A stretch of 64,000 nt of DNA from Halopiger aswanensis (GTDB lineage: Archaea > Halobacteriota > Halobacteria > Halobacteriales > Natrialbaceae), in contig NZ_RAPO01000001.1 of NCBI RefSeq assembly GCF_003610195.1, positions 806,001 to 870,000 on the forward strand. Direction: 5' to 3'. The notes beneath the pieces are model-generated. The model was not told the DNA's origin, searched no databases, and saw nothing but the letters and a program-made list of their open reading frames with translations. The first letter of the stretch is position 1. Each line of letters starts with the position of its first letter. Both the position numbers and the translations under genes were made by a program. Shown in pieces: positions 6,248 to 23,741 of this stretch.

Positions 6248-6667
6248 ATGTCGAACATGCTAACCGACGCCGAACCCGTCCTGCGACGCGACCCCGTCAT
6301 GGAACAACTGATCGAGACCCACGAGCCGTACGTCGAACCAGACTGGAGCGAGTACGAACGGCTCTGCATCTCGATCATCAACCAGCAGCTCTCGACCGCG
6401 AGCGCGATGGCCGTCCGCGAGCGCGTGTTCGAACTCCTCGAGGGCGAGGTGACGCCGGAAACCGTGCTCGCCGCCGAGGACGAAGCGCTCCGGGACGCCG
6501 GCCTCTCGCGCAGCAAGATCGAGTACATGCGAAACGCTGCGCAGGCGTTTCAGGAAAACGACTACACGCAGGAAGCGCTGGCCGACCACTCCGACGAGGA
6601 GGTGATCGACCGCCTCACCGAGATCAAGGGAATCGGCGAGTGGACCGCGAACATGTACCTCCTTTAA
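6248..6667 (+). pseudogene. Host DNA-3-methyladenine glycosylase, 5' fragment (interrupted by the element)
   Basis: The N-terminal ~135 codons of an AlkA/HhH-GPD DNA glycosylase (base excision repair of alkylated purines). It includes the LCISIINQQLSTASA helix region and the helix-hairpin-helix core LTEIKGIGEWTA. The reading continues into the attachment core ATG TAC CTC CTT and hits TAA at 6665, supplied by the element. The catalytic Asp expected shortly after the hairpin is missing here and lies in the 3' fragment at 23526. The start is ATG 6248 or ATG 6257; alignment with the element-borne copy (MIDEAIPVLR) favours 6257. The product should be inactive. Confidence 0.93.
6653..6663 (+). other. 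Left attachment core (attL)
   Basis: ATGTACCTCCT, identical to 23526-23536. On the host side it is preceded by CGAAC; on the element side it is followed by TTAACTC. The first three bases are a Met codon of the host gene, so the core lies in a conserved coding segment right after the helix-hairpin-helix motif. Confidence 0.9.
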
Positions 6668-6697
6668 CTCAGTATCTATACACAAAGTATATACAAA
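6664..6697 (+). promoter_or_regulatory. Left-end inverted-repeat arm and inward promoter
   Basis: TTAACTC (6664-6670) is the exact inverted partner of GAGTTAA at 23519-23525. Beyond it, the left arm AGTATCTATACAC resembles the right arm read inward (AGTGTATCTACACC). GTATATACAAA (6687-6697) also recurs, inverted, at 23457-23467. It lies ~28 bases before the ATG at 6719 and so can serve as TATA box for the integrase operon, and possibly as a recombinase arm site. Confidence 0.65.
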
Positions 6698-6718
6698 CAA
6701 TCTCCCTCGATAGACAGT

Positions 6719-7318
6719 ATGGGAGAAGCAAAAGAAGGGACGGAGGAAGACGATGCAAACAAACGCGTTACAGTCCCATGCCGCGTCCACCCGGAGACCC
6801 GCGACGAATGGCACGACTTCGTTGACGACTCTGATGAATGGGACAGCGTCTCTGACCTTATCCGCGGAGCTGTTTACCGGGAGATAGACGGTTGGTACAC
6901 CCAGCCCGGGGCACCGGCAGGAGGAAGCGTTGAAGCAGACGTAGACCTCGACCCTGTGCTCGATGCTCTCAACAACCTCAGTGACGACATCAACTCTATC
7001 GAGGACCGCCTCGATAACATTGAAGACCAAGAACACGATATGATGACTCTGCTGGCCGAGGACATCCGGGAGTTAATTCCCCAAGTAAACGACACCAGCG
7101 AGGTCGAGAAAATCGAAGCTGACCCCCGTAAAACAGTGAAATTCCTCGCTGAAGAAGCAGGGAGCATTGATGCAATCATAGATACTGTCAGTGCCCGACG
7201 TGGAGTCCGAGAGGGCAAGGTGCGAAACGCTATTGACAAACTCAAAGAGGACCTGCCTGCCAGCATCAACGAAGTACAAGTGAACGAAGGAGACCATCGA
7301 CTCGTTGAGGTCCGATAG
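6719..7318 (+). CDS. Putative ribbon-helix-helix/coiled-coil protein coupled to the integrase
   Basis: 199 residues, first gene of the element. Residues ~15-55 (KRVTVPCRVHPETRDEWHDF then VSDLIRGAVYREI) have the strand-helix-helix pattern of a ribbon-helix-helix DNA-binding domain. Residues ~75-105 form an acidic coiled coil. The last ~70 (KTVKFLAEEAGSIDAIIDTV, REGKVRNAIDKLK) look like a helix-turn-helix. Its stop codon abuts the integrase ATG, so the two are co-transcribed from the promoter at the left end. A recombination directionality factor or repressor of the integrase is a reasonable inference; no sequence match proves it. Confidence 0.65.
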   Translation: MGEAKEGTEEDDANKRVTVPCRVHPETRDEWHDFVDDSDEWDSVSDLIRGAVYREIDGWYTQPGAPAGGSVEADVDLDPVLDALNNLSDDINSIEDRLDNIEDQEHDMMTLLAEDIRELIPQVNDTSEVEKIEADPRKTVKFLAEEAGSIDAIIDTVSARRGVREGKVRNAIDKLKEDLPASINEVQVNEGDHRLVEVR

Positions 7319-8305
7319 ATGCCCCGGGAGGACTACGACTGGCATATCGACTACATCGAAGAGTGGCTACTGTTCTACAAGTCCGCCCGCCCACGTAGCT
7401 ACGACACAAGGCGTTCAGAAATCCGGCAATTCGACGAATGGGCATCGGAACAAGGGATAGATTCTATCGAAGAAGTCACGTACAGAACCCTCAAGCGATT
7501 CGCTATCGAGCAAAACGAAGACTATGCTCCAAAAACCGTAGCTGGCCGAGTCCAGGCAATTAAGAAATGTTTGGACGAGGCGTATCGAGACGAGGTCATA
7601 GACGAACATCCTCTACCCCGAGACTGGAGTATGGATGAATGGGGGATTAACGAGAACAAGACTCTACGCCAGCAATACCTCGAAGAACACGACCTAACTG
7701 AAGGAGTCACGGAGGACGAGTGGAGGCAACTGCGAGCAAACGTCCGTTCCCCCCGAACTCGTAATCAACTGCTCATCGACCTTCTCTGGACTACTGGAGC
7801 ACGTGCCAGTGAGATAGTCAATCTCACATTGGATGACATTGACCAAGATAATCGCATCATAGAGATACCTGACCGTAAGAAGAGCGACCCAGACGCAACC
7901 CGGAAGGTGAGTTATCTCCCTGTATGTGACCAACCCCTCACCGCTTGGCTGACAGACCGAAAACGGTACCAGTGTCTCAAAGACGCTGACGAGGACTGGC
8001 TCTTCTGTTCACGGAAGACCGCTCCCATGTATCCAGACCTTGTCTCCGAAATCGTGCGCGAATCTGCCTGGGAAGCAGGGATACAGAAAGTGATTGGTCA
8101 AGACTCACAGGGTCGAGACCTCCATTATATCAATGCTCATGCTCTCCGTCACGGCCACGGTACATGGGCTTCAGACCGGGTTGGCATCCACCGAGTACAG
8201 TCCCAGCTTGGACACGCATCTGTAGAGTTGACGGAGTCCACGTACACTCACACTGAGACTGAAGACGAAGAGAATCCGTATCACGACCTTAGCCTCGACG
8301 ATTGA
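7319..8305 (+). CDS. Tyrosine site-specific recombinase (element integrase)
   Basis: 328 residues. Residues ~8-100 form a SAM-like core-binding domain (phage integrase N-terminal type); ~125-315 form the catalytic domain. The catalytic set is visible: R162 in TTGARASEIV, a Lys at 187/188 in the beta-hairpin (DRKKSD), H274-x-x-R277 in HALRHGHG, H299 in QLGHAS and nucleophile Y309 in STYTHT. It should act at the ATGTACCTCCT core, with the TTAACTC/GAGTTAA arms as binding half-sites. It lies second in the left-end operon. The attachment core is not retained inside this gene. Confidence 0.95.
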   Translation: MPREDYDWHIDYIEEWLLFYKSARPRSYDTRRSEIRQFDEWASEQGIDSIEEVTYRTLKRFAIEQNEDYAPKTVAGRVQAIKKCLDEAYRDEVIDEHPLPRDWSMDEWGINENKTLRQQYLEEHDLTEGVTEDEWRQLRANVRSPRTRNQLLIDLLWTTGARASEIVNLTLDDIDQDNRIIEIPDRKKSDPDATRKVSYLPVCDQPLTAWLTDRKRYQCLKDADEDWLFCSRKTAPMYPDLVSEIVRESAWEAGIQKVIGQDSQGRDLHYINAHALRHGHGTWASDRVGIHRVQSQLGHASVELTESTYTHTETEDEENPYHDLSLDD

Positions 8306-8608
8306 CCGAGTGAACGCGTCCACAACGTGGAGAGTATCGCAGATGGGGCAAAATATTATTTTATTAGAGGAGTGGTGAGAGAGTGTGGATTACTCTGAGA
8401 GACCGTTCTGATGAGAGGCGCGTTTTCGACCGTTTCAGCGAGTTGTCGCTCTGTGCCCACGGCGTTGTAGCCCCACATCTCCTAGTACTTGTCTAGTACT
8501 ATATTTACTAACTAACACTAAAACCACTGTTTAACAAGGGGGTGTTCCAGATAACTAACACAGGCTGTGAATAAATTAATAGGGGTAGGGTGCGTGGTTC
8601 TTATCAAG
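8306..8608 (+). promoter_or_regulatory. Intergenic region with CTAGTACT direct repeat and promoter
   Basis: No gene seen. CTAGTACT occurs at 8482-8489 and 8493-8500, 11 bp apart (one helical turn), running into ACTATATTTA, a TATA-like stretch. This looks like an operator overlapping a promoter. A second AT-rich stretch, ATAAATTAATA (8569-8580), lies ~34 bases before the ATG at 8609 and may be the TATA box for that gene. Confidence 0.45.
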
Positions 8609-9772
8609 ATGGTTAGAGATACTATCCACGTTGACAAACAGTCAACGCGGAAACAGTTGACGATGGAAGCATGGGCCGCAGATTATCTCAACTCGGACTC
8701 GTCGATGACGAAGGGTTTAGCAGCTAATGAAGCTCTTCTCTTCGACTTTCGACGCGATTTAACCGACCCTCTCACCGAGATTGAGGGTCGTGTCCTCAAC
8801 CGGCTGTCTGAGCGCAGCGAGTTGGACTTCCGAGAGCTGCTCAACAGAATAATATCTGAGCGCACTGGTCAGGCGATGGCGAAACTTCAGAATGAGTGTA
8901 GGTATGACGACCCGGAGGAACGTCTAAATCACGTTGATTGTTATTTAATCGAGTCGCAGATGCCTGATGGTCGCGGACTTGGAGACGAGATTGCGGATAG
9001 CATCCGGTATCTCGTAGCATCTCCGTGGGACTCGCGTACTGACCGTCTCAATGACCTCCAGCGACTCGACCGGATGTTCACCGACGGGGTGGACGCGGTT
9101 GACTACGATGACTCTTCATTCCTTACCGCAATCGTTGAGGGCGATACCTCGACGTGGGCCGTAGGTGACCTCCATGAAGCTGTGGTTGACCGGGAGCCAT
9201 GGAACGACCCCGATTTGACAGTCGAGGACCTGCGCAACACGACCTACATCCCGGAAGGGCGCAAGCGTCGGCGTGCGCTTGACCACGCGCTGTCAAACTC
9301 GTCTCAGGTCTGGGACGAGAGCGACATCCGCAGCCTCATCAAGGACTTGTGGGAGGTCCACGACCTCACGGTAGACCAGATGATTAACGACCTCGATTAC
9401 GACCCTGGGTCTGCCGAGGTTGACGGTGTTAAATTCGCCGAACGCGTCCAAGACCTCGCGGAAGACCTCGTCAGCGAGATGCGGCAGGATGACCGGTGGC
9501 GAGATTCCGTACCTGGGAAACCTCTCCACTCACCGGCGCAGTATTACACGGACGACAAGCCGCCAGAGTACATCGTTGGTCTCATTGGTAGCGCAGAGAA
9601 CATCCTCAACCACGAGATAGTGGAATCTGAGGAGGATGTAGACATCGCAACGTCGCAGCTGACTCATTCAACCCGTGACACGGACCTCGACTTGGTCGAG
9701 GAAATGCAGGATGAGTTCGAGGACCGCTTGTTTGACCTCCGGGACGAGGTCATTGAAGAAGTAGAGGGGTAG
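8609..9772 (+). CDS. Hypothetical acidic protein of the element
   Basis: 387 residues from the ATG at 8609 (MVRDTIHVDKQSTRKQLTM); an in-frame GTG at 8567 overlaps the promoter and is less likely. No family recognised. The first ~20 residues contain a short beta-strand then a helix (DTIHVDKQSTRKQLTMEAW), loosely like the start of a ribbon-helix-helix fold. The remainder is helical and acidic with a basic patch (PEGRKRRRALDHAL near residue 230). It is the second-largest protein of the element and has its own promoter. A DNA-binding or replication role is possible but unsupported. Confidence 0.6.
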   Translation: MVRDTIHVDKQSTRKQLTMEAWAADYLNSDSSMTKGLAANEALLFDFRRDLTDPLTEIEGRVLNRLSERSELDFRELLNRIISERTGQAMAKLQNECRYDDPEERLNHVDCYLIESQMPDGRGLGDEIADSIRYLVASPWDSRTDRLNDLQRLDRMFTDGVDAVDYDDSSFLTAIVEGDTSTWAVGDLHEAVVDREPWNDPDLTVEDLRNTTYIPEGRKRRRALDHALSNSSQVWDESDIRSLIKDLWEVHDLTVDQMINDLDYDPGSAEVDGVKFAERVQDLAEDLVSEMRQDDRWRDSVPGKPLHSPAQYYTDDKPPEYIVGLIGSAENILNHEIVESEEDVDIATSQLTHSTRDTDLDLVEEMQDEFEDRLFDLRDEVIEEVEG

Positions 9773-10258
9773 TCACGCTGTGAGTGCGCGTGCGGCGTCG
9801 TTGAGTCCGTGTTTCTGGTTGTTGATGGCCGTCCACATCTGAGGGTGGATGTAAATACAACTATGGTCATTGTAGGATTTGAGTTCTCTCAATAGGGTTT
9901 CGTAGGTTCGGTCGTTATCGAGGTCGAGGTCGTCTTCAATGGATAGACGGGTTGCGTCCTCGTCTTGGTAGGCTCGCCACGAGAGTTGAACGTCAGTTGT
10001 GTCGGTCAAATCGTCGTGGAAGATGCGGATTGCAGGCTCATATCCTGACCGGATATAGTGTGCGTGTTCGAGGGTCTCATTTGGCCATAGCCGCTGTTCG
10101 TTGAGGTCACCGCTCACCAGAATGAATTCGGTCGAAACCTCGGCGGCGAGTTCGTCAAGGGAACCGGCGTTAAAACTCTGCCAAACTTCTGGTTCGACAA
10201 CTAAGCTACTGCACCGGCACAACCTCTTTTCTGATGTCCACCAGCTTGACATCGACAT
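9773..10258 (-). CDS. Hypothetical protein of the element
   Basis: 161 residues if started at the ATG at 10258 (10252 is also possible). The first ~18 residues (MSMSSWWTSEKRLCRCSS) overlap the end of the upstream gene in another frame and do not look like natural protein. Convincing sequence starts at VVEPEVWQSFNAGSLDELA. No ATG or GTG exists between 10252 and that point. Either the overlap start is real, or a frameshift has split one original gene (10206-10514 plus this one). The stop codon is at 9773, directly after the convergent gene ending at 9772. No function recognised. Confidence 0.55.
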   Translation of the reverse strand: MSMSSWWTSEKRLCRCSSLVVEPEVWQSFNAGSLDELAAEVSTEFILVSGDLNEQRLWPNETLEHAHYIRSGYEPAIRIFHDDLTDTTDVQLSWRAYQDEDATRLSIEDDLDLDNDRTYETLLRELKSYNDHSCIYIHPQMWTAINNQKHGLNDAARALTA

Positions 10259-10514
10259 CTATCTCCTTAGAGCCAGGAGCGCCCGGTGGACGGTGCGCAT
10301 CGATGAGTTCCTCTGTTGCTCCGATATGCACGCACCACCGCTCCTCAGGATGTATCTCTCGGTGTGGACCCCAAGCGTCACAGTCGCACTCAGACCCTCG
10401 ATACTCTAACTCTCCATCTCCCGGAGAGTACCACCGTCTCACGCGGAACTCAACGCCAGAATCGTCGAGGACGCGGAAATACATGACCACATAGTCCTCC
10501 GGGAGAGTCTCCAT
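10206..10514 (-). CDS. Hypothetical protein of the element, Trp/Cys-containing
   Basis: 102 residues starting METLPEDYVVMYFRVLDD. It contains GSECDCDAWGPHREIHPEE and a C-terminal beta-rich part (KEIDVDVKLVDIRKEVVPV). No family recognised. Its 3' end overlaps the downstream ORF (to 10258) by about 50 bases. It is divergent from the winged-helix gene at 10659, with a 144-bp promoter region between them. Confidence 0.5.
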   Translation of the reverse strand: METLPEDYVVMYFRVLDDSGVEFRVRRWYSPGDGELEYRGSECDCDAWGPHREIHPEERWCVHIGATEELIDAHRPPGAPGSKEIDVDVKLVDIRKEVVPVQ

Positions 10515-10658
10515 ATATCTGAGACATCAACGCGAATCGTACATAACGCCTGGGGCTAGTATCTCGGCCAGACACGCAGTAGAGAATCCCTCGACCTTCA
10601 CCGGGACGCCAGGATATATGTGTAGATTCTCTCGTGCTCATTGATAGGTAGGAATAGA

Positions 10659-10916
10659 ATGACGATGCGAGACCAAATCTGGAACGCGGCACTCGAACAG
10701 CTCGTCGCCAAGGGAAAATTCAAAGCCGCCGAAGTTATGGACGAACTCGACCTCTCTGAGAGGCAGCGGCAGACCGTACGACGTACCCTTAGACAGCTTG
10801 AGGAGCAAGGTTGGCTCTCACGGGAGAGCAAGCAATCCGGTATCTGGCGGCTTGGGAAGAAAGGGAGAATGCTGTTGAACGTGAGCGAGGACACTATTGA
10901 CGAGTCTAGAGAGTGA
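10659..10916 (+). CDS. Small winged helix-turn-helix protein
   Basis: 85 residues from the ATG at 10659 (83 from 10665). The whole protein is one winged helix: RDQIWNAALEQL, then KAAEVMDELDLS, recognition helix RQTVRRTLRQLEEQG, and wing WLSRESKQSGIWRLGKKG. It closely resembles the 72-residue protein at 22102 (RDxIWxAxL, QTVRxxLRxM), so the element carries two related small regulators near opposite ends. It probably controls element genes. The divergent gene at 10514 may share its regulatory region. Confidence 0.7.
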   Translation: MTMRDQIWNAALEQLVAKGKFKAAEVMDELDLSERQRQTVRRTLRQLEEQGWLSRESKQSGIWRLGKKGRMLLNVSEDTIDESRE

Positions 10917-10974
10917 CCCACTCAGTTTCGCTACCCCCGATATTGATTAGCACGCAGACAGAATAAAGGAGGAT

Positions 10975-11676
10975 ATGATTGAGGGGAGTGAGTTCAACGT
11001 TTTACAAGGTTCAGAGATTATTGAAGACAAAGGGTTAGACGAGGGTGGAGTACATGTTGACTGCAGTCGTTGCGGACGGGGACAACGATTGACAGCTGAT
11101 AACGCAGCTGGGTACTATGTCGACCGATGGCTCTGCAACTCCTGCAGAAACAACCTCCAAATCCGATGGGACGGAGACCTCCACCAGCCAACTGACCTCC
11201 TCTACCTGGTCAGCAAGCCCTTGTCTAAATCCACACTCAACGTGGGCGACACAGAGTATGAGGTAGTCCGCGAGGACTCGGATGAATTTACGCGAACCCA
11301 CCTGACTGCGTACCTTTTAAATCGAGAAGCCAAAGACCACCAACACGGAATTGGGACGTACAATATCGGGCACCATTACCCGCATATCGTGTTAGATGAC
11401 GGAGAGGCAGTCGGCTACCTACTCTGGGGACCAACGCCTAACGAGTACATGGTTCTTCGACAGTTGTTCATCCGTGAACCGTACCGCAGACAAGGGATTG
11501 GGTCTGCCCTCGTTGAATACTGGTGGGACGACGTGGCCAAAGAGTGGTGCGAGGACAGTGACGAGGATTTCTACCATATCGAGATGCCTAACGAATCGAT
11601 GACGGAGCTAATAGTTGACCTTGGCCATGATGGTGAGGATGGACAACCATGCGCTTACAGACACCAGCCGAGCTGA
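10975..11676 (+). CDS. GNAT N-acetyltransferase with N-terminal zinc ribbon
   Basis: 233 residues. The N-terminal ~55 contain two Cys pairs (DCSRCGRG and LCNSCRNN), a small zinc ribbon. The C-terminal ~110 form a GNAT fold with the acetyl-CoA-binding signature RRQGIGSALVEYW, preceded by VLRQLFIREPY. The substrate is unknown; in an element it might modify a protein, a metabolite or a toxin. A GGAGG lies two bases before the ATG at 10975, closer than usual for a Shine-Dalgarno. It is a single gene between the winged-helix gene and 11803. Confidence 0.75.
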   Translation: MIEGSEFNVLQGSEIIEDKGLDEGGVHVDCSRCGRGQRLTADNAAGYYVDRWLCNSCRNNLQIRWDGDLHQPTDLLYLVSKPLSKSTLNVGDTEYEVVREDSDEFTRTHLTAYLLNREAKDHQHGIGTYNIGHHYPHIVLDDGEAVGYLLWGPTPNEYMVLRQLFIREPYRRQGIGSALVEYWWDDVAKEWCEDSDEDFYHIEMPNESMTELIVDLGHDGEDGQPCAYRHQPS

Positions 11677-11688
11677 CTACGTAGACTT

Positions 11689-11799
11689 CACTCGGTACGA
11701 GGTGTGTGTCTAGAATAGACTCAAGCATATAAAGGGGTCGAGAACGGGCGGTATGAGGTATTAGGAGACAGTTTAGGTTACTACACTCGGCACGAGGTG
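11689..11799 (+). promoter_or_regulatory. Promoter bracketed by two 16-bp dyad motifs
   Basis: CACTCGGTACGAGGTG at 11689-11704 and CACTCGGCACGAGGTG at 11784-11799 differ by one base. Each is an imperfect dyad (CACTCG against CGAGGTG). A TATA-like ATATAAAG lies between them at 11727-11734. The second copy ends three bases before the ATG at 11803. This looks like a paired operator allowing looping or autoregulation of the 11803 gene. Confidence 0.5.
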
Positions 11800-11802
11800 G
11801 AG

Positions 11803-12528
11803 ATGAGTTTTCTTGGTATTCCTCGGCATGAGAAGAGTTACATCATGGTTCAAGATTTAAATGCCATTAGACGCCTCTATCTGGGTAACTTGCCGAGAAA
11901 GATACCTTCCCGAGACTCCATAGTAGTCCTCCAAAACGAGCAAATTGATTTCAAAGTCGAATTCGATGGGATTGGGCCAAGCGGTGTGAAATTTCTGGTC
12001 AATGATGAGATAGCAGCCGCCCCAAGTTTACATCCAGCGGAGACTGAGTGGATGATAGAGCCAACATTCCGGGAGACGGGCGAGTTCACCTTCCAGATAA
12101 TCGTCGAAGGGCCTGCATCTCCTGCAGAGATGGAGAAACTTGCGAGTGGAGACTCTGAAAAGATGGCGAACGTTAAGGAGTCAGAACGAATCAACGCGAC
12201 TTGGGATATAGTAGTTGCAGACCCTGACGAATTGTATCAGTCTACTCCTGAGAGAATCACAGAACTGATTCTGACAGCGTTAGGTCTGTACCAAGCAGGG
12301 GAACTCTCCTATAAATCCGTGAAGAGGGTGAAGAGAGTTCTTGATGAACAACTGCCAGAAGAGACAGTAGATGACGTTGAACACGAGCTAACAACGTTGG
12401 ATGACTTCATAGAGTCCAATGAGCCAGAAGAGGATGAACAGGAGGACTCAAACAAAGAGCTAAACCGGATAGCCAATTGGAGCGGGTACATGATTCAGAA
12501 ACTGCAAACTCGGTTCAGACGAGATTAG
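11803..12528 (+). CDS. Hypothetical protein of the element
   Basis: 241 residues from the ATG at 11803. The N-terminal ~125 residues look beta-rich (VLQNEQIDFKVEFDGIGPSG, WMIEPTFRETGEFTFQIIVE), with the alternating pattern of an Ig-like sandwich. The rest is helical and ends with an acidic linker (NEPEEDEQEDSNKE) and a basic tail. No signal peptide or family recognised. It overlaps by 14 bases the 3' end of the convergent membrane-protein gene at 12515. A paired 16-bp motif precedes it. Confidence 0.55.
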   Translation: MSFLGIPRHEKSYIMVQDLNAIRRLYLGNLPRKIPSRDSIVVLQNEQIDFKVEFDGIGPSGVKFLVNDEIAAAPSLHPAETEWMIEPTFRETGEFTFQIIVEGPASPAEMEKLASGDSEKMANVKESERINATWDIVVADPDELYQSTPERITELILTALGLYQAGELSYKSVKRVKRVLDEQLPEETVDDVEHELTTLDDFIESNEPEEDEQEDSNKELNRIANWSGYMIQKLQTRFRRD

Positions 12529-13435
12529 TGACGAGACCGCGCTCATACGCAAAGTGCAGCCCGAAGAGAACGTACACTACCAGTGAGTACTGCACGTATC
12601 TCCACTTGTTAGACGACAACTCCCCAAAGTCATCTCGCCCATACCGACCGTAAAGGAAGCGTGTAGAGACGATGCTATAATTTGTAGCAAGAGCAAATAG
12701 AAGTGACAGAACGGTTATTTTCGTCGTTTGAACCACCGATGAGGTCGGGAAGACGAAAGTGGCTGCAGCCATCGGCAAGAGAAATACTCCTGTAAAGGCG
12801 GCTGCTCCGAGGGCAACACCAAGACGTGACCCAATACGCTCCCCCAGACTCTGTTCCTCGGTATCTGCTAGACCTGTTTCCTGAATACGGCGAGCTTGAG
12901 GAGGATATTCGTCTTCAGGTAGGACAGACCTCTCAAGTAGCGTCTTCGACATCGCCAAAACCTCGTTACCAAACGGAGTTCCTCTGGAATTCAGATGCAC
13001 GTTCCAAACGTGGAGCGACATCAAGAGGAAGAAATCCCGATACAGTATTTCGTAGAGTACAACTGAAAGTAGAGCAGCAACGACGCATAGCGTCATTGCG
13101 ATAGACAATGGGGTCGCGGGAACAATAGGTGTGAGATATGAACCGACAACAAGGGAGAGGTAGAGAAACGAGTACGTGGTTGTGACGACTAACAGGGGAG
13201 TAGACCGCGACATAATCCAATCCTGTCTCGAATGCGGGTTTATCAATGCCATCCGGCGGAGGAGTGTGAGTAGCAGCAGCAGAAGAGCAGCACCAATAGT
13301 TGGTATCGTCAGTACCTGGCTGACACCAGGACTAATCAGGAGAGCTGTAGCAATGAGGGCAGCAACAGTTATCTCATAGTCTACTGCCGACTCCATATCC
13401 TTCTCTAACGTATCCGATAACGATACTTTCGCCAT
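12515..13435 (-). CDS. Polytopic membrane protein of the element
   Basis: 306 residues from the ATG at 13435 (an in-frame GTG lies at 13444). About six hydrophobic helices are visible: two near residues 23-57, two near 78-128, then a soluble loop of ~80 residues (PEDEYPPQARRIQETGLADT), and two or three more at the C-terminus. No known transporter or enzyme motif. The function is unknown. Confidence 0.6.
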   Translation of the reverse strand: MAKVSLSDTLEKDMESAVDYEITVAALIATALLISPGVSQVLTIPTIGAALLLLLLTLLRRMALINPHSRQDWIMSRSTPLLVVTTTYSFLYLSLVVGSYLTPIVPATPLSIAMTLCVVAALLSVVLYEILYRDFFLLMSLHVWNVHLNSRGTPFGNEVLAMSKTLLERSVLPEDEYPPQARRIQETGLADTEEQSLGERIGSRLGVALGAAAFTGVFLLPMAAATFVFPTSSVVQTTKITVLSLLFALATNYSIVSTRFLYGRYGRDDFGELSSNKWRYVQYSLVVYVLFGLHFAYERGLVTNLV

Positions 13436-13539
13436 TTGGCACATTCAGAGGCAAGTATCGTCTTAATCCCTCGGGTTCCGCAGACAGGTCGGACGGTCTC
13501 GGCGATGCATCTTTGGCATATTATACCCAATCTATCAGT

Positions 13540-13668: not shown

Positions 13669-13673
13669 GGTCT

Positions 13674-16290: not shown

Positions 16291-16608
16291 TTACTCGCCA
16301 GAATAACGGAGACGGATAATATCGTCCCAGATAACACAATCGTGCGTTTCCGCGAGGTCTAACGCCTGCACGCACGCATCCTCAGCAGACCCATATAGAC
16401 CGCATGACTGGATAACCTCTCCTCTACCCGCTGGCCAAAGAACGACATCATGAGCTTCTGTACCATCCCCGTGAAGTCCAATACCATCGTCCTCCGGGAT
16501 TCTATAGACTACAATGTGTACGCGGTCGCGCAGCCGTTCCTCGACGATATGGTCCGACGAGAGATAATCTGATACGCTTCCAGCGACCCCGTCTTGGTCC
16601 ATAGCCAT
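16291..16608 (-). CDS. Hypothetical protein, paralogue of 16937-17227
   Basis: 105 residues. The centre and end match the neighbouring small protein at 16937: a hydrophobic strand into WPA (HDVVLWPAGRGE against VEIVCWPADECP), a Tyr-Gly turn, a long helix (SAEDACVQALDLAETHD) and a closing hydrophobic strand ending DDI. The two genes flank the iteron array in the same orientation, which suggests tandem duplication. No function recognised. The promoter would lie beside the repeat array. Confidence 0.5.
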   Translation of the reverse strand: MAMDQDGVAGSVSDYLSSDHIVEERLRDRVHIVVYRIPEDDGIGLHGDGTEAHDVVLWPAGRGEVIQSCGLYGSAEDACVQALDLAETHDCVIWDDIIRLRYSGE

Positions 16609-16650
16609 ACTCGATTCATTGATTTCTGTTGAGAAAAGGTCGAGGGAATA

Positions 16651-16866
16651 GTGAGTATACTGCTGAGAATTCCAGTGAGTATACCGCTGAGTATGCTGCT
16701 GAGTGTACCAGTGAGTATACCGCTGAGTATGCTGCTGAGTGTACCAGTGAGTATACCGCTGAGTATGCTGCTGAGTGTACCAGTGAGTATACCGCTGAGT
16801 ATGCTGCTGAGTGTACCAGTGAGTATACCGCTGAGTATGCTGCTGAGTGTACCAGTGAGTCTACTA
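16651..16866 (+). repeat. Array of 18 x 12-bp iteron-like repeats (36-bp higher-order unit)
   Basis: 216 bp built from 12-bp units of the form nnCTGAGTrTrC. Three variants (GTGAGTATACCG, CTGAGTATGCTG, CTGAGTGTACCA) make a 36-bp super-unit present five times exactly (16675-16854), with a partial unit on each side. The array lies between two paralogous minus-strand genes. It is open in two frames (a SEYTAEYAAECT protein repeat), but I see no start signal, so I treat it as non-coding. Candidate roles are a replication or partition iteron block, or a regulator-binding array. Confidence 0.85.
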
Positions 16867-16936
16867 GTCAGACATCCAGATGTACAACTAGCTGAGCGTA
16901 CATACTATAGTCTCTACCAAACTCGGGATTCACTCT

Positions 16937-17227
16937 CTAATCCCCGTTAATATCGTCTAATACCGGTATTCCCAACTCGTCAGCTAAATCCACGGCTGTA
17001 CGGATAGCGACCTCGACATCGCTAAAACCTCCGTACTCATCATACACCGGCCAGACTTCTTGCCGAGTCTTACGTACATAGACATCGTATGTTGTACCAG
17101 ATTCCTTGGCCACATCGGGACACTCGTCAGCGGGCCAGCAAACAATCTCTACATGAGGTCCATACGGACGTTCTGCGACAACTCGGTCTGAATCAGTGTA
17201 CTCCTCTACTTTGACGGTCACTGTCAT
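16937..17227 (-). CDS. Hypothetical protein, paralogue of 16291-16608
   Basis: 96 residues starting MTVTVKVEEYTDSDRVVAER. It shares with the 16291 product the WPA strand, the Tyr-rich turn (VYDEYGGFSDVEVAI) and the C-terminal LADELGIPVLDDI. The fold is probably alpha/beta; the function is unknown. Its 3' end lies beside the iteron array. Confidence 0.5.
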   Translation of the reverse strand: MTVTVKVEEYTDSDRVVAERPYGPHVEIVCWPADECPDVAKESGTTYDVYVRKTRQEVWPVYDEYGGFSDVEVAIRTAVDLADELGIPVLDDINGD

Positions 17228-17253
17228 AACCGCTGTTCGCTTCGTTCTCCGAT

Positions 17254-17487
17254 TTAAACCTCAGTATCGCTCGGACGGAGGTCTCTCCAGCGAAAATCCA
17301 TCTCTTCCCCTGATTCAAGCTCTACCCGGTAGAGTACACTATCACGTTCGTCACCAGTCGCATATCCAGCTGCATCTTCCTTGATTGCAGTTACCACTCC
17401 GTGTTCCCTGTGATACTCAAAATCAGGGTCTGTCGTATCAGGAATGTCTACCCGGACACGGTCTCCGACACTAAACCGATTGACCAT
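17254..17487 (-). CDS. Small SH3/KOW-like protein
   Basis: 77 residues from the ATG at 17487 (MVNRFSVGDRVRVDIPD); an upstream in-frame start at 17526 adds unlikely residues. The pattern is that of a small beta-barrel: GDRVRV, EYHREHGVVTAI, SVLYRVELESGEEMDF, then a conserved-looking RWRDLRP end. Similar short proteins occur widely in haloarchaea; their role is unknown. It is divergent from the restriction-modification gene at 17599. Confidence 0.6.
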   Translation of the reverse strand: MVNRFSVGDRVRVDIPDTTDPDFEYHREHGVVTAIKEDAAGYATGDERDSVLYRVELESGEEMDFRWRDLRPSDTEV

Positions 17488-17583
17488 ACCCCTCAATTTC
17501 GCGTCCACCCTCGTGAGAGTTACCAAACAAAACTACCACACAGTAAGCTACAAGAACCTAGTGTATCAACAGAGAGACCTAAT

Positions 17584-17588
17584 GGAGG
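17584..17588 (+). promoter_or_regulatory. Shine-Dalgarno deciding a GTG start
   Basis: GGAGG, extended as GGAGGGTG, lies ten bases before a GTG at 17599. It supports that GTG as start of the large restriction-modification gene rather than the in-frame upstream extension, which would overlap the divergent gene. Most genes here are leaderless, so the site stands out. Confidence 0.55.
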
Positions 17589-17598
17589 GTGCCAGTCC

Positions 17599-20544
17599 GT
17601 GAGTGAGGCTGACGTACACTTTGAACTCTATCGTCATGTACAGAACGCTATTGATGACCAGCCGAGTCGCGGTCAGATAACCTTCGGTTCCGCCCGACCC
17701 GAGTACAGCGAAGGGATTAGCGGCCGAGCAGACATCGTCATATTCGACGACTCGCACAACCCGATACTTGTCGTCGAGGCGAAGAAGCCCGGGGATTCGG
17801 GCAACCGTGACATCGACCCATATTCGCCGGATGTCATCGAACAAGGGTTGGAATACGCGACCAAGCTGGGAGCCCCCTTCACAGCGACGTACAACGGGAG
17901 CCGACTCGTCCTGTTCAAGACCTTGGAGCCCGGGAAACCATTTCTCCAGAGAGCTACCAAATCCTACGAGATTTCGAGTGTACCGAAATTCGCTGACGAG
18001 CTGCTGAACGAGGTCTCCCGGTTTGAAGCGAAGCAAGCCCAGTGGGACAGCCTCGACAACGCGTTCATCAAGCGGGTTAAAAGCCTTCACGAGTTCGTAT
18101 CACCCCGAATCGAGGACTCTCTCCAAGAGAAAATCGAAGAGGACAGTTCGTTCCAGGTCTCGTTTGAGGAGTGGGCCGACAAGCAAGGGCTAGAGTACTC
18201 AGACGCCAGCAAGAGCGAGAAGGAGGATATACTCCAGAATTTTTCTGAGCAGGCAACCTACTTGTTGATAAACAAGATTCTATTCTACAAGATACTGGAG
18301 AACTCACCCGCGTACGGTGACGAGGTTGCCCCACTCGCCGTCAGCATCCACCGAGTCCAAGAAGACCTCGAAGAACACTTCGACAAAATCGTGTCCGACG
18401 TGGACTTCGAGGCTATTTTCGAGCACGACGACATCTACTCCGAGATTCCGCTCGAACCCGTTGCTGAGAAAATCCGAGAGTTCGTTATCGAACTGGACGA
18501 CCAGGACTTGACACAGTTCGACAGTGACGTTATCGGGCGCATCTACGAGGGCGTTATTCCCCACGAGCGCAGGCACGAGATGGGGGAATATTATACTCCC
18601 GCCGCCGTCTGCGACCTGATTACTCGACTCTGTATCGACAGTTCCTCCGACACGGTCCTCGACCCTGCCTGCGGCTCTGGAGGATTCCTTGTCAGTGCGT
18701 ACAACCGCCTCCAAGAGCTATTCCCCGAGGCAAAAGGAGCGCACACAGAGATTCTCAACCGAATCTACGGGGTGGACATCAACCGCTTCCCGGCCCATCT
18801 GAGCGCCATCAACCTCGCCATCCAAGACCTCGAATCCTACACGGAGGACGTACACATCGAGGTCTCAGACTACTTCGACGTTGCCTCGGATACGCAGAGA
18901 TTTGGACGCGTGGTGGCAGGCCTCAGTGGCCGAGAATGGCAGAACGGTGATTCAGAGGATGCGCTCGGCGGCTTCGACGCAGTGGTCGGAAATCCGCCCT
19001 ATATCAGAGCTACCAGCCTTGATGATAAATCCCGTATCCGAAGCCACCTATCCGACCTAGACGCTACCGACCTATCCAGTCAGATGGACATCTACGGGTA
19101 CTTCATCACCCATAGTACCCAATTCCTCTCAGACGGGGGCAAATTGGGATTCATCACGAGCGACCGGTGGATGGACACCGACTATGGAGCTGACCTCCAG
19201 AAGTTCCTCCTCGACAACTACAGCATCGACGCCGTCATCCGATTTGACCGACAGACGTTCGATGACGCCTTGGTCGGAGCCAGCATCATCATCGCCACCA
19301 AAGAGCCGGACACGCCTACCCGAGACGAGAACACCGTCAAATTCCTACGCGTACGCGAGCCTCTCGAAATCGATGAAATAGAATCCATCCTCCGGGAGGA
19401 CACGGCGAGCGACCAGATGATTAACGATACCGAGTACAGACTCGTCACACGGCGACAAGGAGACCTCTACGACCAAGATAAATGGAAGCCATATTTCCTG
19501 GCTAGCCCGGTGTACTTCGACTTGTATGGTCACGACGATACTACCGAACTGCAGGACGTAGCCGATGTCAGTCGCGGAATAACGAGCGGCGCAAATCCGT
19601 TCTACTACGGTCGACGCGAGGAATGGGAAGACCTCGGACTCACCGAGTACACCGAACCTCTGCTCAAAGCCACTGGACAGCTCGACAGCATCCGATTCAA
19701 CGATGAAGACGCGAAAGAGTGGGGGGTTCTCTCCATCCACGACCTCGTTGAACAGGGTATCGAGGAGTCGAAAGCCCAGGAAGAAGAAAGCGAAGAGTAC
19801 CGAGACATCGACCCGGCAGAGCGAGCGAAATCGTGGATGGCAGACAACGGCCACGAAACCCTCGTAGAATATATCGAATGGGGCGAAGACAAGGGGTACG
19901 ATGACCGACCCACGACCTCATCTCGAAGTGTCTGGTACGACCTCGGAGAGTTAGACACCCCCAAGATACTCACTACCGACTTCACGTGGCGAATCTTCCG
20001 TAGTGTCTGGAACGAGGCTGGAGCAGCCGTTAACGACCAATTCTACTGCATAGAGCCTCGGAACGATATAGATGACCAAGTCCTCTGTGGAATCCTAAAC
20101 TCACGGTTCGCCTGGCTCATGGTCGAACTGCGCGGTCGATGGGCAGGCGGTCAAGGTATGACGCGAGCCCGCATCAAAGTCTACGAGACTGAGGAGCTCC
20201 CCATACCCGACCCGCGGACGATGAGCGACGAAGAGAAGGAACGAATCCGCGGTGCGTTCGAGGACCTCATGGACAAAGAAGACGAACTGGATGAAGAAGA
20301 CCGCAACGTCGAAAACACCGAGGATGAGCGAACGGAACTCGACCGTGCTGTACTCGCAGCTCTCGGAATGGAAGACCGAGTCGACGACCTGAGAGCCGCC
20401 GTCGAAGAGCAAGTTGCTCTCCGCGAGCAAGACGCCGGAGAGCGCACCCAGGTCTTGGTCAACCGCCCGCAAGAGACCGAGGTCATCAACCTTGAAGGCG
20501 TCACCGAAACCCGAGACAGTACCACCCTCAGCGACTTCAATTAA
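17599..20544 (+). CDS. Type IIG-like restriction-modification enzyme (nuclease + N6-adenine methylase + specificity)
   Basis: 981 residues from the GTG at 17599. Residues ~1-130 contain a PD-(D/E)xK-type nuclease core: D45 in GRADIVIFDD, then E60 and K62 in LVVEAKKPG. Residues ~300-560 are a gamma-class N6-adenine methylase: GEYYTPAAVCD, SAM-binding LDPACGSGGFLVSAYN (~354) and catalytic VVGNPPYIR (~465). The region from ~640 (LQDVADVSRGITSGANPFYY) resembles the target-recognition domains of Eco57I-like enzymes. A charged coiled coil lies near the C-terminus. No separate S or R gene is near, so it probably cuts and methylates by itself. It may defend the host or stabilise the element. PglX of BREX is an alternative family, but the N-terminal nuclease argues against it. 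Confidence 0.82.
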   Translation: MSEADVHFELYRHVQNAIDDQPSRGQITFGSARPEYSEGISGRADIVIFDDSHNPILVVEAKKPGDSGNRDIDPYSPDVIEQGLEYATKLGAPFTATYNGSRLVLFKTLEPGKPFLQRATKSYEISSVPKFADELLNEVSRFEAKQAQWDSLDNAFIKRVKSLHEFVSPRIEDSLQEKIEEDSSFQVSFEEWADKQGLEYSDASKSEKEDILQNFSEQATYLLINKILFYKILENSPAYGDEVAPLAVSIHRVQEDLEEHFDKIVSDVDFEAIFEHDDIYSEIPLEPVAEKIREFVIELDDQDLTQFDSDVIGRIYEGVIPHERRHEMGEYYTPAAVCDLITRLCIDSSSDTVLDPACGSGGFLVSAYNRLQELFPEAKGAHTEILNRIYGVDINRFPAHLSAINLAIQDLESYTEDVHIEVSDYFDVASDTQRFGRVVAGLSGREWQNGDSEDALGGFDAVVGNPPYIRATSLDDKSRIRSHLSDLDATDLSSQMDIYGYFITHSTQFLSDGGKLGFITSDRWMDTDYGADLQKFLLDNYSIDAVIRFDRQTFDDALVGASIIIATKEPDTPTRDENTVKFLRVREPLEIDEIESILREDTASDQMINDTEYRLVTRRQGDLYDQDKWKPYFLASPVYFDLYGHDDTTELQDVADVSRGITSGANPFYYGRREEWEDLGLTEYTEPLLKATGQLDSIRFNDEDAKEWGVLSIHDLVEQGIEESKAQEEESEEYRDIDPAERAKSWMADNGHETLVEYIEWGEDKGYDDRPTTSSRSVWYDLGELDTPKILTTDFTWRIFRSVWNEAGAAVNDQFYCIEPRNDIDDQVLCGILNSRFAWLMVELRGRWAGGQGMTRARIKVYETEELPIPDPRTMSDEEKERIRGAFEDLMDKEDELDEEDRNVENTEDERTELDRAVLAALGMEDRVDDLRAAVEEQVALREQDAGERTQVLVNRPQETEVINLEGVTETRDSTTLSDFN

Positions 20545-20629
20545 CGGCTCTCCTTTCTCTGCATCTTTCTCTGCCTCCAGTCACTACTATCTAACCCGTC
20601 AAACCGCCGGATAGCTGCAAGAACAGTAG

Positions 20630-20652
20630 ACAAACTTTGCACAAAGTATCAT
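20630..20652 (+). promoter_or_regulatory. Palindrome upstream of the 20653 gene
   Basis: ACTTTG and CAAAGT face each other across two bases just before the ATG at 20653. The right half is part of CACAAAGTAT, which also occurs at 6681-6690 in the left-end promoter of the element. GTATAC CCC GTATAC follows at ~20673-20687. These look like regulator-binding sites. Confidence 0.4.
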
Positions 20653-21117
20653 ATGACCAACACTCCTTTAGGAGTATACCCCGTATACAATTGTATGCAG
20701 TCGCACACTACCGATGGTGCAGACGCACAGGATAGTCCGATGAACAACTCCGTTGAGAAGTTCAAATCTGTACTCGACTCAATCATTGACGAGTCAATTA
20801 TCGAACTTACAGAAACCGAACGAGGCAGTCTCATCGACTCACTTGTAGACGCACATCGAGACACCATCAACGACTTCGAAGCAAACGCTGACGGCGTCCT
20901 CTACCACGATGACGACTGGTACGTAATCACCAGTGACCGCCACATCCTCCAACAATACGTAGACGACCCTGACGAGAAAAACTGCGAGTTCTACGACCTC
21001 GATGCGAAACTCGCAACCAACCTACTCCAATCGGTACACGACCGTGTCGCAGAAGAAATCAGTGGCAATCCCCACATCGCCTCTGACGTAGATGTATTCG
21101 TCTACAAACGCGAATAA
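20653..21117 (+). CDS. Hypothetical acidic protein of the element
   Basis: 154 residues from the ATG at 20653. Internal ATGs at 20695 and 20740 are possible and would leave the repeats before them non-coding. The core from NNSVEKFKSVLDSIIDESII is helical, followed by a strand pair (GVLYHDDDWYVITSDRHILQ) and ending DVDVFVYKRE. No family recognised. The stop codon TAA overlaps the first base of a tRNA-like hairpin that precedes the next operon. Confidence 0.5.
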   Translation: MTNTPLGVYPVYNCMQSHTTDGADAQDSPMNNSVEKFKSVLDSIIDESIIELTETERGSLIDSLVDAHRDTINDFEANADGVLYHDDDWYVITSDRHILQQYVDDPDEKNCEFYDLDAKLATNLLQSVHDRVAEEISGNPHIASDVDVFVYKRE

Positions 21118-21157
21118 CCCGTGTCGGCGTACAGTGGTTCGATTCCGCTGGCGGGTA
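21117..21157 (+). ncRNA. Minimal tRNA-like acceptor/T-arm hairpin in a 5' leader
   Basis: AGTGG TTCGATT CCGCT (21133-21149) is a full five-bp T-arm with the canonical TTCGATT loop. GGCGGGT (21150-21156) follows directly and can pair with ACCCGTG (21117-21123) in six of seven positions, one of them G-U. The result mimics a tRNA minihelix. It ends one base before the ATG at 21159, so it occupies the leader of the ribbon-helix-helix/signal-peptidase operon. Confidence 0.4.
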
Positions 21158-21158
21158 T

Positions 21159-21332
21159 ATGACAGACACAGTCCGCATCGATGATAGCATCGACGAGAAA
21201 ATAATCCAAGCACAAGACCAAGTCGAAGAAGCAACCGGCACACGGCCAAGCAAAAAGGAACTCGTCCGTGCCGCAGTCAACCAGTACGATGTCGGAGACA
21301 ACAACGGAGGTGAATCCGGTGACACAGAATGA
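21159..21332 (+). CDS. Short ribbon-helix-helix protein coupled to a signal peptidase
   Basis: 57 residues, ATG 21159, TGA 21330-21332. The sequence TDTVRIDDSIDEKIIQAQDQ followed by TGTRPSKKELVRAAVNQY has the strand-helix-turn-helix plan of a ribbon-helix-helix DNA-binding protein. The tail GDNNGGESGDTE is disordered. Its stop overlaps the signal-peptidase start (ATGA), so the two are translationally coupled. It could autoregulate the pair. A tRNA-like hairpin occupies its leader. Confidence 0.6.
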   Translation: MTDTVRIDDSIDEKIIQAQDQVEEATGTRPSKKELVRAAVNQYDVGDNNGGESGDTE

Positions 21333-21766
21333 GTACCAAGTCTACAGCCCCCCACGCTGCACAAGACGATGTCGACTGGGATAGATTATTCCGCGTCAGC
21401 GTCGTTGTTTTCCTCCTGTTCCTCTGCTCAATGGTTGGTGTTGGATTCGCTGACCGAATGCCCAGTCATGAAATCCCATTCGGATACGCAATGACTGCCG
21501 GAACTGGCTCGATGGAACCCACAATGACCGGTGGCGAGCTGGTCATCTACACGGACTGGGGAGAAGTCGAGGAAGGAGACATCATCGTGTTTGAGGACGC
21601 GCAGCGAGACATAGACTTAGTCCACCGCGCGGTCGAGGACACCGAGCAAGGATGGGTAACTAAAGGAGACGCGAACGGCTACCTTGACCAAGACCGGGGC
21701 ATCCCCCATGCAACCGAGGAGACTATCTACGGCCGCGAGCTGGTCCACATCGACCTTCCATTCTAA
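21329..21766 (+). CDS. Type I signal peptidase (archaeal S26B-like)
   Basis: 145 residues. One N-terminal membrane helix (FRVSVVVFLLFLCSMVGVGF) is followed by the catalytic region: Ser in TGSMEPTMTGGELVI, the conserved strand GDIIVFED, His in DLVHRAVED and Asp in TKGDANGYLD, the Ser/His/Asp arrangement of archaeal and ER signal peptidases. It would cleave secretory signal peptides on the outer face of the membrane. No element protein shows an obvious signal peptide, so its substrate may be a host protein or a protein with an atypical signal. It is short for the family. Confidence 0.88.
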   Translation: MSTKSTAPHAAQDDVDWDRLFRVSVVVFLLFLCSMVGVGFADRMPSHEIPFGYAMTAGTGSMEPTMTGGELVIYTDWGEVEEGDIIVFEDAQRDIDLVHRAVEDTEQGWVTKGDANGYLDQDRGIPHATEETIYGRELVHIDLPF

Positions 21767-22101
21767 TCCTCCCCGTTCCAACCTGTTACATCACCCCTAG
21801 GGAGCAACCTGTAACCAGGTACTGTAACATCCTCCTAGGGGAGACCCGCTATCCGACACTCTATATGGGGAGACCCATCAACGAGTAAACAATATCAGTT
21901 ACGAACCCATCCTATGTTATAAAAGGTAGTAGTACCAAATAATTGATAGGCGTCACCCGGGGTATCCCATGACGCCAATGTACCGCCCTCCAAATACACC
22001 ATCGGTAGTATCTGTCTGAGTTCCATGCGTCGGAGGCGCGTCGGCTCTAACCGACGCTATCCCCCCTGTCATCTAAGAGGTAGTAACCACTCATAGTTAA
22101 T
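21767..22101 (+). ncRNA. Structured non-coding region, candidate small RNA
   Basis: 335 bp with no ORF. The left part holds three GTTAC/GTAAC boxes (21783-21830), two CCTAGG sites (21796, 21834) and two GGGGAGACCC repeats (21838, 21867). A TATA box, TTATAAAAGG, at ~21916-21925 lies ~28 bases before two perfect 7-bp hairpins: GGCGTCA/TGACGCC (21949-21976) and GCGTCGG/CCGACGC with a 6-base loop (22038-22057). This fits a short structured RNA of ~115 nt starting near 21947. Confidence 0.35.
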
Positions 22102-22320
22102 ATGACACAACCAGCAAAGAGAGACCACATCTGGGCGGCCACTCTGAAACTCCTATCCGAAGAAGAAGAGACTACAGTAGACGACATCCAATCAGAATGT
22201 TCCGTTGAAGTCTGTGAACAGACTGTGCGCAGTGTACTCCGCGCGATGGTCGAGTTTGATTACATCGAGCATAAACCAGGAAGTCCAGTGTATCGAGCGC
22301 CAGTTCCAAGTGGTGGATAG
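22102..22320 (+). CDS. Small winged helix-turn-helix protein
   Basis: 72 residues, a single winged helix: KRDHIWAATLKLL, then TVDDIQSECSVEVCE, recognition helix QTVRSVLRAMVEFD and wing YIEHKPGSPVYRAP. It is a diverged relative of the 10659 product. It is probably a regulator of the right half of the element; the structured non-coding region lies directly upstream. Confidence 0.65.
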   Translation: MTQPAKRDHIWAATLKLLSEEEETTVDDIQSECSVEVCEQTVRSVLRAMVEFDYIEHKPGSPVYRAPVPSGG

Positions 22321-22390
22321 TACTGTATCCCCTCTCTCCTCTTGCGATTTTGACCTAGGATATATAGGGTTTGACAACCATACACAATAT

Positions 22391-22543
22391 ATGGCGTCGC
22401 AACCAATCAGCGGCGAAATCAATATCACATGTCCCGCCTGCGGAAACACCGTATCAACAAACCCAGTAGCCTCTGGCGTCGTTGATACAGTCCGCTGCCA
22501 ATGCGGTCAAGAAGTCACAGTGAACGTCAACGGTTCTTGGTGA
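22391..22543 (+). CDS. 50-residue zinc-ribbon protein
   Basis: Starts at the ATG at 22391 (MASQPISGEINITCPACGNT). Two Cys pairs, CPACG and CQCGQ, about 20 residues apart form a zinc ribbon, ending VTVNVNGSW. A TATA-like ATATATAGG at ~22358-22366 lies ~29 bases upstream, consistent with a leaderless start. It is probably a small nucleic-acid- or protein-binding module; no function known. Confidence 0.6.
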   Translation: MASQPISGEINITCPACGNTVSTNPVASGVVDTVRCQCGQEVTVNVNGSW

Positions 22544-22771
22544 ACACCAATTGGGTCTCCGTCCCTCTACCTCAATGGGGTCGAGACAAGAAGACCCTGA
22601 GGTCTATACTTAGACTCAACTTCTCGCGGGGCATGTATCGTTGCCACTCTTCTTTCTTCACCCGCTCTCAGAACGGCCCGGAGGCGAATGGGAGTTGCTC
22701 CGAGACCGCATCCAACCCGAGACACTGGTACCAATTATAGCTGCTGGCCTCTACATATCTGACCATCGCTC

Positions 22772-23374
22772 TTAATCAGCAGACTCGTACTCTGCCCAGA
22801 TATACCGTGTCGCCACCGACCGATACGGACGCCACGCTTCAGCAATCTCACGCATCTCCGCACGCGTCATCTCCCCCGGCTCCTGCCCGTTCCCGTACAA
22901 CTGCTCAATGCCGCGACGGATAGCGAGGTCGCCGAGCGGGAGTACGTCTGGCCGTTCGAGTACAAATAACAGAAACATGCGTGCCGTCCACGGACCAATA
23001 CCCTTGATTTCGGTAAGTCGGTCAACAACCTCCTCGTTCGAATACTCTGCCAGACCTTCGCGTGTAAAATCGTTCTCTTGGAAGGCACGGGCAGCATTAC
23101 GCATATACTCCACCTTGCTCCGGGAGAGTCCAGCTGCGAGGAGTGCTTCATCTTCTGCTTCTAGTACGGCCTCGGGAGTGACCTCGCCACGGAACAACTC
23201 GAACACGCGCTCCCGGACGGCGGTGGCGCTCGCGGTCGAGAGCTGCTGGTTGATGATGGAAATACAGAGTCGCTCGAACTCGTCCCAGTCCTGCTCAACA
23301 TATGGGTCGTGCTGCTCAATGAGCTCCGCCATTACCGGGTCTTCCCTTAGAACGGGGATTGCCTCGTCTATCAT
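22772..23374 (-). CDS. Full-length DNA-3-methyladenine glycosylase carried by the element
   Basis: 200 residues from the ATG at 23374 (MIDEAIPVLREDPVMAEL); an in-frame ATG at 23416 would add a His-rich leader. It is an intact AlkA/HhH-GPD glycosylase: LCISIINQQLSTASATAV, helix-hairpin-helix LTEIKGIGPWTARM, and catalytic-Asp region LPLGDLAIRRGIEQLYGNG. By eye about four of five residues match the host gene that the element interrupts, along its whole length. At the attachment position it reads ATGTTTCTGTT instead of ATGTACCTCCT, so its own gene is not a target. It is transcribed inward from the right end, where GTATATACAAA (23457-23467, minus strand) can act as TATA box. Confidence 0.95.
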   Translation of the reverse strand: MIDEAIPVLREDPVMAELIEQHDPYVEQDWDEFERLCISIINQQLSTASATAVRERVFELFRGEVTPEAVLEAEDEALLAAGLSRSKVEYMRNAARAFQENDFTREGLAEYSNEEVVDRLTEIKGIGPWTARMFLLFVLERPDVLPLGDLAIRRGIEQLYGNGQEPGEMTRAEMREIAEAWRPYRSVATRYIWAEYESAD

Positions 23375-23456
23375 CCTCGTGTCGTTAGAATGATGGTGAT
23401 GGGGCGGGAAATGCATCTCGATAGTGTCCCGTGTTCACACATTCGCCAACGCTGAT

Positions 23457-23525
23457 TTTGTATATACAGATTTGAGGCTAATCGCCAGACGTAGTTGACT
23501 TCGGTGTAGATACACTGCGAGTTAA
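23457..23525 (-). promoter_or_regulatory. Right-end inverted-repeat arm and inward promoter
   Basis: GAGTTAA (23519-23525) mirrors TTAACTC at the left end. Read inward, the right end continues AGTGTATCTACACC, like the left AGTATCTATACAC, and has GTATATACAAA at 23467-23457. This can drive the glycosylase copy and may bind the integrase. Confidence 0.6.
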
Positions 23526-23536
23526 ATGTACCTCCT
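23526..23536 (+). other. Right attachment core (attR)
   Basis: ATGTACCTCCT, identical to 6653-6663, preceded by the element arm GAGTTAA and followed by host sequence GTTCG. CGAAC on the left host flank and GTTCG on the right host flank are themselves an inverted pair, so the empty target attB is also a dyad. Confidence 0.9.
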
Positions 23537-23741
23537 GTTCGTCCTCGAGCGCCCGGACGTCCTCCCGCTGGGCGACCTGGCGATCCGCCGCGGCATCGAG
23601 CAGTTGTACGGCAACGGCGAACCGGACGAGATGACCCGCGCCGAGATGCGCGAGATCGCCGAGGAGTGGCGACCCTACCGCAGCGTCGCGACGCGGTACA
23701 TCTGGGCGGAGTACGAGGCGGAGTCGCCGGCCGTCCTCTAG
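23526..23741 (+). pseudogene. Host DNA-3-methyladenine glycosylase, 3' fragment
   Basis: 71 codons continuing the host gene exactly where the 5' fragment (6248-6667) is cut: MYLLFVLERPDVLPLGDLAI, then GIEQLYGNGEPDEMTRAEM and WRPYRSVATRYIWAEYEAES. It contains the Asp-bearing segment needed for catalysis but lacks the N-terminal domain and the helix-hairpin-helix. The core happens to start with ATG, so a short peptide could be made, but it would not fold as a glycosylase. Confidence 0.92.

Follow-up and report, generated by a model that had tools for sequence, protein, structure and literature searches.

We consider here a stretch of 64,000 nucleotides of the archaeon Halopiger aswanensis (hereafter the window, whose positions serve as coordinates throughout), in which an integrated element of 16.9 kb, from 6664 to 23525, interrupts the gene of an AlkA-like DNA glycosylase of the HhH-GPD family and carries in its own body a complete glycosylase gene that comes from another haloarchaeal lineage. 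The reading that best fits this arrangement, and that we consider probable, is replacement in trans: the element breaks a gene and supplies a whole substitute for it elsewhere in its sequence. The design recurs in one class of haloarchaeal integrases, at three different target genes.

The insert is bounded by two copies of the 11-bp sequence ATGTACCTCCT, at positions 6653-6663 and 23526-23536 of the forward strand, both within one glycosylase gene and exactly where an initial annotation, made from the letters of the window alone, had placed them; the window contains no further copy, even with one mismatch allowed. Taken alone, such a repeat is weak evidence, since shuffled controls with the same tolerance give a mean of 0.47 matches, and 12 of 100 shuffles reach two or more. 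When the insert is excised, positions 6248-6652 join positions 23526-23741 in a closed frame of 206 amino acids, which bears out a second claim of the annotation. GC content is about 0.60-0.69 outside the insert, versus about 0.49-0.58 across its full kilobases. The insertion itself is proven by the empty site, which the annotation had suggested looking for in relatives, found in a sister species of the same genus (genome G001): the glycosylase gene is uninterrupted there, and the window segments 6192-6663 (94%) and 23526-30350 (91%) map to adjoining DNA with an overlap of exactly 11 bases.

With a PF00589 integrase beside one end, a direct-repeat core and an empty site in a relative, the insert has the traits of a tyrosine-recombinase element. 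The element arm TTTAACTC continues the left core to position 6670, and the arm GAGTTAAA occupies positions 23519-23526 at the right one. The predicted circular joint, GAGTTAAA-TGTACCTCC-TTTAACTC, would hold two perfectly inverted 8-bp arms separated by 9 bases (the arms were recognized by eye), a layout as expected of the core site of such a recombinase. The only tRNA gene of the window lies at 42649-42721. One trait of many integrating elements is missing, namely the restoration of the target: each resident piece breaks off at the core, and the 5' frame (6248-6667, forward strand) stops at a TAA just past it. The claim that the junction restores nothing, and that a separate full gene is supplied instead, is supported; the carried gene encodes 214 amino acids.

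The joined resident gene is 93% identical to its orthologue in G001. Its 5' piece ends with the residues MYLL and a stop, past the helix-hairpin-helix and short of the LGD region. The latter lies in the 3' piece (23526-23741, forward strand), identified by its sequence, by the joining of the frames and by matches to PDB sequences; it aligns with the GD/DD region of the solved glycosylases 2h56, 2yg8 and 3s6i, and its aspartate corresponds to the catalytic residue of AlkA. About 110 bases separate the carried gene (22772-23416, reverse strand) from the right junction, with a putative TATA-like stretch, noticed by eye, between the two and upstream of the gene (23455-23472, reverse strand). Its protein is 82% identical to the resident one over 200 amino acids (76% over 530 bases of DNA), as the annotation had estimated in speaking of a complete opposite-strand glycosylase that agrees with the host gene at about four of five residues. 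It matches PF00730 above the curated cut-off (3e-17), and its PDB sequence matches include 2h56, which is the best one, 2yg8 and AlkA; against the NCBIfam AlkA model it scores far under the cut-off, at 39 of 229 bits. The genome has six Pfam hits to HhH-GPD, namely the carried gene, the resident 5' piece and four paralogues, two of which were compared and are 31% and 26% identical. An intact second copy on the chromosome, which would have made the carried gene irrelevant, was looked for: no further orthologue appears in the genome at E<=1e-3, and the carried gene is the only whole one.

The two genes differ in base composition, with a GC content at third codon positions of 0.65 for the carried gene versus 0.91 for the resident, and they differ in descent. 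A tree of 34 proteins places the resident glycosylase as sister to the orthologue of G001 (support 97/97) and the carried one among genomes of other genera (90/92), with no firm nearest relative. DNA similarity of the carried region to native loci extends from 22782 to 23445; the similarity to the native locus of G059 spans the carried gene and a further 30 bases or so in front of it. The genes that score nearest to the carried copy (those of G059, G060 and G067) were suspected of deriving from elements, an idea rejected because these genes lie at the native locus and have high GC. A search of viral contigs with the glycosylase and with an alignment of the integrase gave no result, and among phages and plasmids only matches below 60% identity were found, those listed being at 32-39%. 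The carried gene shows a low rate of amino-acid change: compared with five native relatives, its ratio of nonsynonymous to synonymous change (dN/dS) is 0.046-0.061, a rough estimate since dS, at 1.75-2.2, is near saturation.

Other occupied glycosylase sites were sought in genomes G000 to G420 with the carried glycosylase as query. Only those in which the match was weak, or in which there was more than one, were taken further (25, then 32), so the count obtained is a lower bound. At least five sites are occupied, all at the same M-x-L codons: those of the window genome (G000), G006, G239, G419 and G251, with cores of 11, 7, 16, 9 and 11 bases, respectively. The expectation that other elements at this site would also bring a glycosylase held for one of the four and failed for three: the element of G251 (locus L164) holds a complete glycosylase gene from a different subfamily, 46% identical to the one carried in the window, and no glycosylase copy was found in those of G006, which is split over two contigs and was read in part, G239 and G419. 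A candidate interruption in G039 proved to be a frameshift only. In G020 (locus L076, 3287-3484), an additional piece of the 3' part of the glycosylase gene lies behind two unrelated genes; it was rejected as an occupied site, being a separate recent duplication of about 180 bp whose start is not at the core.

A further 100 loci were fetched, 60 from integrase searches and 40 mostly from a later one, with 20 kb per locus where the contig allowed. A self-copy test, in which the frames upstream of the integrase are compared with the DNA downstream, was applied to 104 loci, seven of which are shorter than 8 kb. A small regulator-like open reading frame (ORF) precedes the integrase in 87 of them. 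Six loci beyond the window combine a broken gene at the junction with a whole internal copy: L164, at the glycosylase; L151, L153 and L156, at a creatininase gene (PF02633); and L170 and L192, at an ABC-2 permease gene (PF01061). Both gene pieces lie within the fetched stretch in L164, L151, L170 and L192, and cores of 10-15 bp are present at both junctions in these four and in the window; the excised frame closes in L164, L151 and L192. Matches were obtained at six of the 60 loci of the first set and one of the 40 of the second, versus none at 114 control positions taken in nine stretches of host DNA; these positions, which come from related genomes and are not independent, gave three weaker matches, none reaching 50% identity over 50 amino acids. 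A replacement is present in 7 of the 12 elements found over the three target sites. Two permease-site elements, L183 and L185, belong to those in which no copy was found.

The match in the second set, L274 (genome G447), is a probable further case. Its resident TFS gene (TFIIS-like; 1816-2115 in the oriented locus) is cut about 11 codons short of its 3' end, and a whole copy lies inside the element (3838-4167); the 3' piece and the core were not found in this locus. Five other candidates were dropped: L143, where the match is another small regulator gene; L163, a short match away from the junction; L245, a 32% match within the ABC ATPase superfamily; L273, a 39% match to a second recombinase-like ORF; and L150 (G129), at a type IV pilin gene, where a 71-bp repeat (96%) makes the case look like ordinary gene restoration at the far junction.

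Among 26 genomes, 23 have an intact creatininase orthologue, and the other three (G171, G245 and G339) have a broken one together with a carried copy. In the creatininase tree the broken residents group with their own genera. The carried creatininases of G171 and G245, whose hosts belong to different families, are nearest each other (89% identity, support 82/75; dN/dS 0.03, with dS at 2.5), and that of G339 stands elsewhere; the two carried permeases form a pair (99) to which none of four residents belongs. From these groupings we conclude that the copies travel with the elements and have been acquired more than once. The 3' piece of the broken creatininase lies on another contig in G245. In G171, the pieces occupy positions 1549486-1549893 and 719763-720131 of contig C1, about 830 kb apart, a distance that suggests a rearrangement after integration.

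The idea that the att core is recoded in the carried copy, which would protect it, was rejected as a general rule. Core mismatches number 4 of 11 in the window and in L164, but 1 of 10 in L151 and L156, 2 of 10 in L153, and 2 of 15 in each of L170 and L192, which does not exceed gene divergence (for L153, L156 and L170, the resident gene used for comparison came from another genome). The best matches include 29 native genes, 4 of which also lack the exact core, so the variant in the window copy may be natural.

The same integrases have other targets, surveyed in 98 loci, where 77 junction-side frames were scanned with Pfam, the rest having no clear frame; genes were assigned to loci by clusters and by eye. 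The site is the 5' end of a release-factor gene in five loci (L163, L175, L193, L196 and L199), the 5' end of an RFC-like gene in seven (L166, L179, L200, L249, L257, L259 and L271) and a point just after secY in four (L258, L260, L262 and L266). These genes, which are usually essential, look whole. An FMN oxidoreductase gene, a type II/IV secretion ATPase gene and a uracil-glycosylase-like gene are cut, and no copy was found. For RFC, SecY, release factor, permease, FMN oxidoreductase and secretion ATPase, integrases with the same target fall together; the five glycosylase-site integrases are scattered in the integrase tree, some of whose branches are long. Of the first 60 loci, 7 contain tRNA genes, all more than 4 kb away from the integrase. 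This range of targets and copies means that a single integrase class has three solutions: inserting at a gene end, breaking a gene, or breaking it and bringing a copy.

Under replacement in trans, a tyrosine recombinase would insert the element at conserved mid-gene codons of the glycosylase gene and inactivate it; the attachment site of the element (attP) would rebuild no gene end, and a complete copy of the target, drawn from another lineage and lodged in the body of the element, would take over the function in trans, at little cost to the host and making a well-conserved coding site usable. The creatininase and permease genes would be exploited by the same strategy. The carried copy is presumably expressed and active, and would be kept because it offsets the damage. 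Of the self-complementing strategy proposed in the initial annotation, the design is upheld by six other elements and two other targets; the dependence of the host on the element is not, the gene having no recognisable match in some genomes and being left broken in others.

Several observations count against this reading. A match to the glycosylase at E<=1e-6 is lacking in 15 of 392 genomes of the order, where the gene is absent or unrecognised; since three same-site elements also leave the gene broken, it is dispensable in the long run. No copy was found in 5 of the 12 elements at the three sites (G006, G239, G419, G438 and G430), so a copy is not needed for establishment. The broken gene of L170 does not close in frame, being offset by one base. 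Synonymous divergence is saturated or nearly so, and the figures do not distinguish the history of the copies within elements from their chromosomal history; the pairing of the carried creatininases of G171 and G245 is moderately supported, with the G339 copy grouping elsewhere.

The elements without a copy would also be expected if copies were a by-product of capture, that is, if recombination around the site trapped the target gene now and then, with no selection for complementation. Captured neighbours are described for helper-embedded phage-inducible chromosomal islands (PICIs) in the portions of PMC10111431 at hand, and copies often lie near the element end (window, L151, L170 and L192). 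However, the copies do not look like products of a simple imprecise excision, since they are full-length and, in the window and in L151, run opposite to the broken gene; moreover, they come from lineages other than the current host and have few amino-acid changes over a long divergence, which makes capture an unlikely account. We give equally little credence to retention by dependence, in which the main role of the copy would be to make the host lose a function along with the element, as an addiction module does. The element is indeed the only source of an intact gene in G000, G251, G171, G245 and G339, and in G171 clean repair by excision looks impossible, the 3' piece being so far away. But an element that excises precisely, wherever both pieces are still in place, would leave the resident gene whole again, contrary to what addiction requires, and some genomes can do without the glycosylase.

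That a repair gene was picked up for its own reasons, by an element that happens to sit in the orthologue, is disfavoured and very improbable: DNA-repair genes are plausible cargo, and a restriction-modification-like gene is also carried, but chance has to face seven matching elements in three unrelated gene families, versus none of the 114 control positions. An artefact of assembly or annotation, such as a chimeric contig or adjoining genes mistaken for pieces, has hardly any probability left. The genomes are drafts, and that of G006 splits the element over contigs; against this stand the empty site of G001, with its exact core overlap, and the same anatomy repeated in contigs of several Mb. 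Replacement in trans is thus preferred over all four. Its farther-reaching form, an evolved and heritable strategy in which element-borne gene lineages outlive and replace those of the host, with housekeeping genes run from mobile DNA, is a tentative proposal with somewhat less than even chances.

In known systems, attP usually carries replacement sequence that keeps the target functional, exceptions being named as regulated gene integrity (both from the available parts of PMC10111431). Target-restoring elements, in tRNA genes or icd, share with the window element a site-specific tyrosine integrase, a short core and a conserved target gene; they differ in that the window element rebuilds nothing at the junction and supplies a whole gene elsewhere inside. 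In regulated gene integrity (skin-like elements, the gerE gin elements), a protein gene is likewise interrupted and precise excision would restore it, but regulation by interruption is unnecessary here because a full copy is carried. The nearest precedent, as far as the same parts of PMC10111431 describe them, is the helper-embedded PICIs, which disrupt protein genes with no replacement in attP and whose captured late genes are proposed as backup intact copies. The gene that these islands break is part of a helper prophage, whereas the element considered here breaks an archaeal chromosomal gene, and at three sites a single target gene is repeatedly accompanied by a copy. Thaumarchaeal integrated elements, in the sections of PMC6563490 at hand, are archaeal and bounded by short direct repeats in protein-coding genes, 14 of 68 in the 3'-distal part; those sections do not describe a mid-gene break with a full spare copy, nor do the corresponding parts of that review and of PMC8371274 describe any whole spare target gene. 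A literature search confined to one limited collection found no description of the replacement-in-trans design.

An integrating element whose target is a conserved coding sequence can restore the end of the gene where it joins, or leave the gene broken until it excises; replacement in trans would add a third option. It would account for the use of conserved mid-gene codons by integrases, and would offer a route for the replacement of orthologues by mobile DNA; the recurrence at no fewer than two other genes suggests a general means by which mobile DNA compensates for the damage it does. The proposal is directly testable, as elements with and without a spare copy exist at the same site.

Among 20 ORFs compared with Pfam and 10 with PHROGs, which are part of those of the window element, no structural or packaging gene was found. 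Next to the left core lies a small ORF (6719-7318, forward strand), ribbon-helix-helix-like by eye and with no Pfam or NCBIfam match, followed by the integrase (7319-8305, forward; PF00589 at 8e-26, PHROG integrase at 1e-39). A cargo region of unknown ORFs extends from 8567 to 13444 and includes a GNAT-like ORF (10975-11676, forward) and a membrane ORF (12515-13444, reverse). A serine recombinase or resolvase (14604-15386, reverse; PF00239 at 9e-24, and PHROGs) comes next, then a type IIG-like restriction-modification protein, also cargo (17401-20544, forward; N6_Mtase, Eco57I), and a signal-peptidase-like ORF (21329-21766, forward), whose match to PF10502, at 3.6e-4, is below the Pfam curated cut-off.

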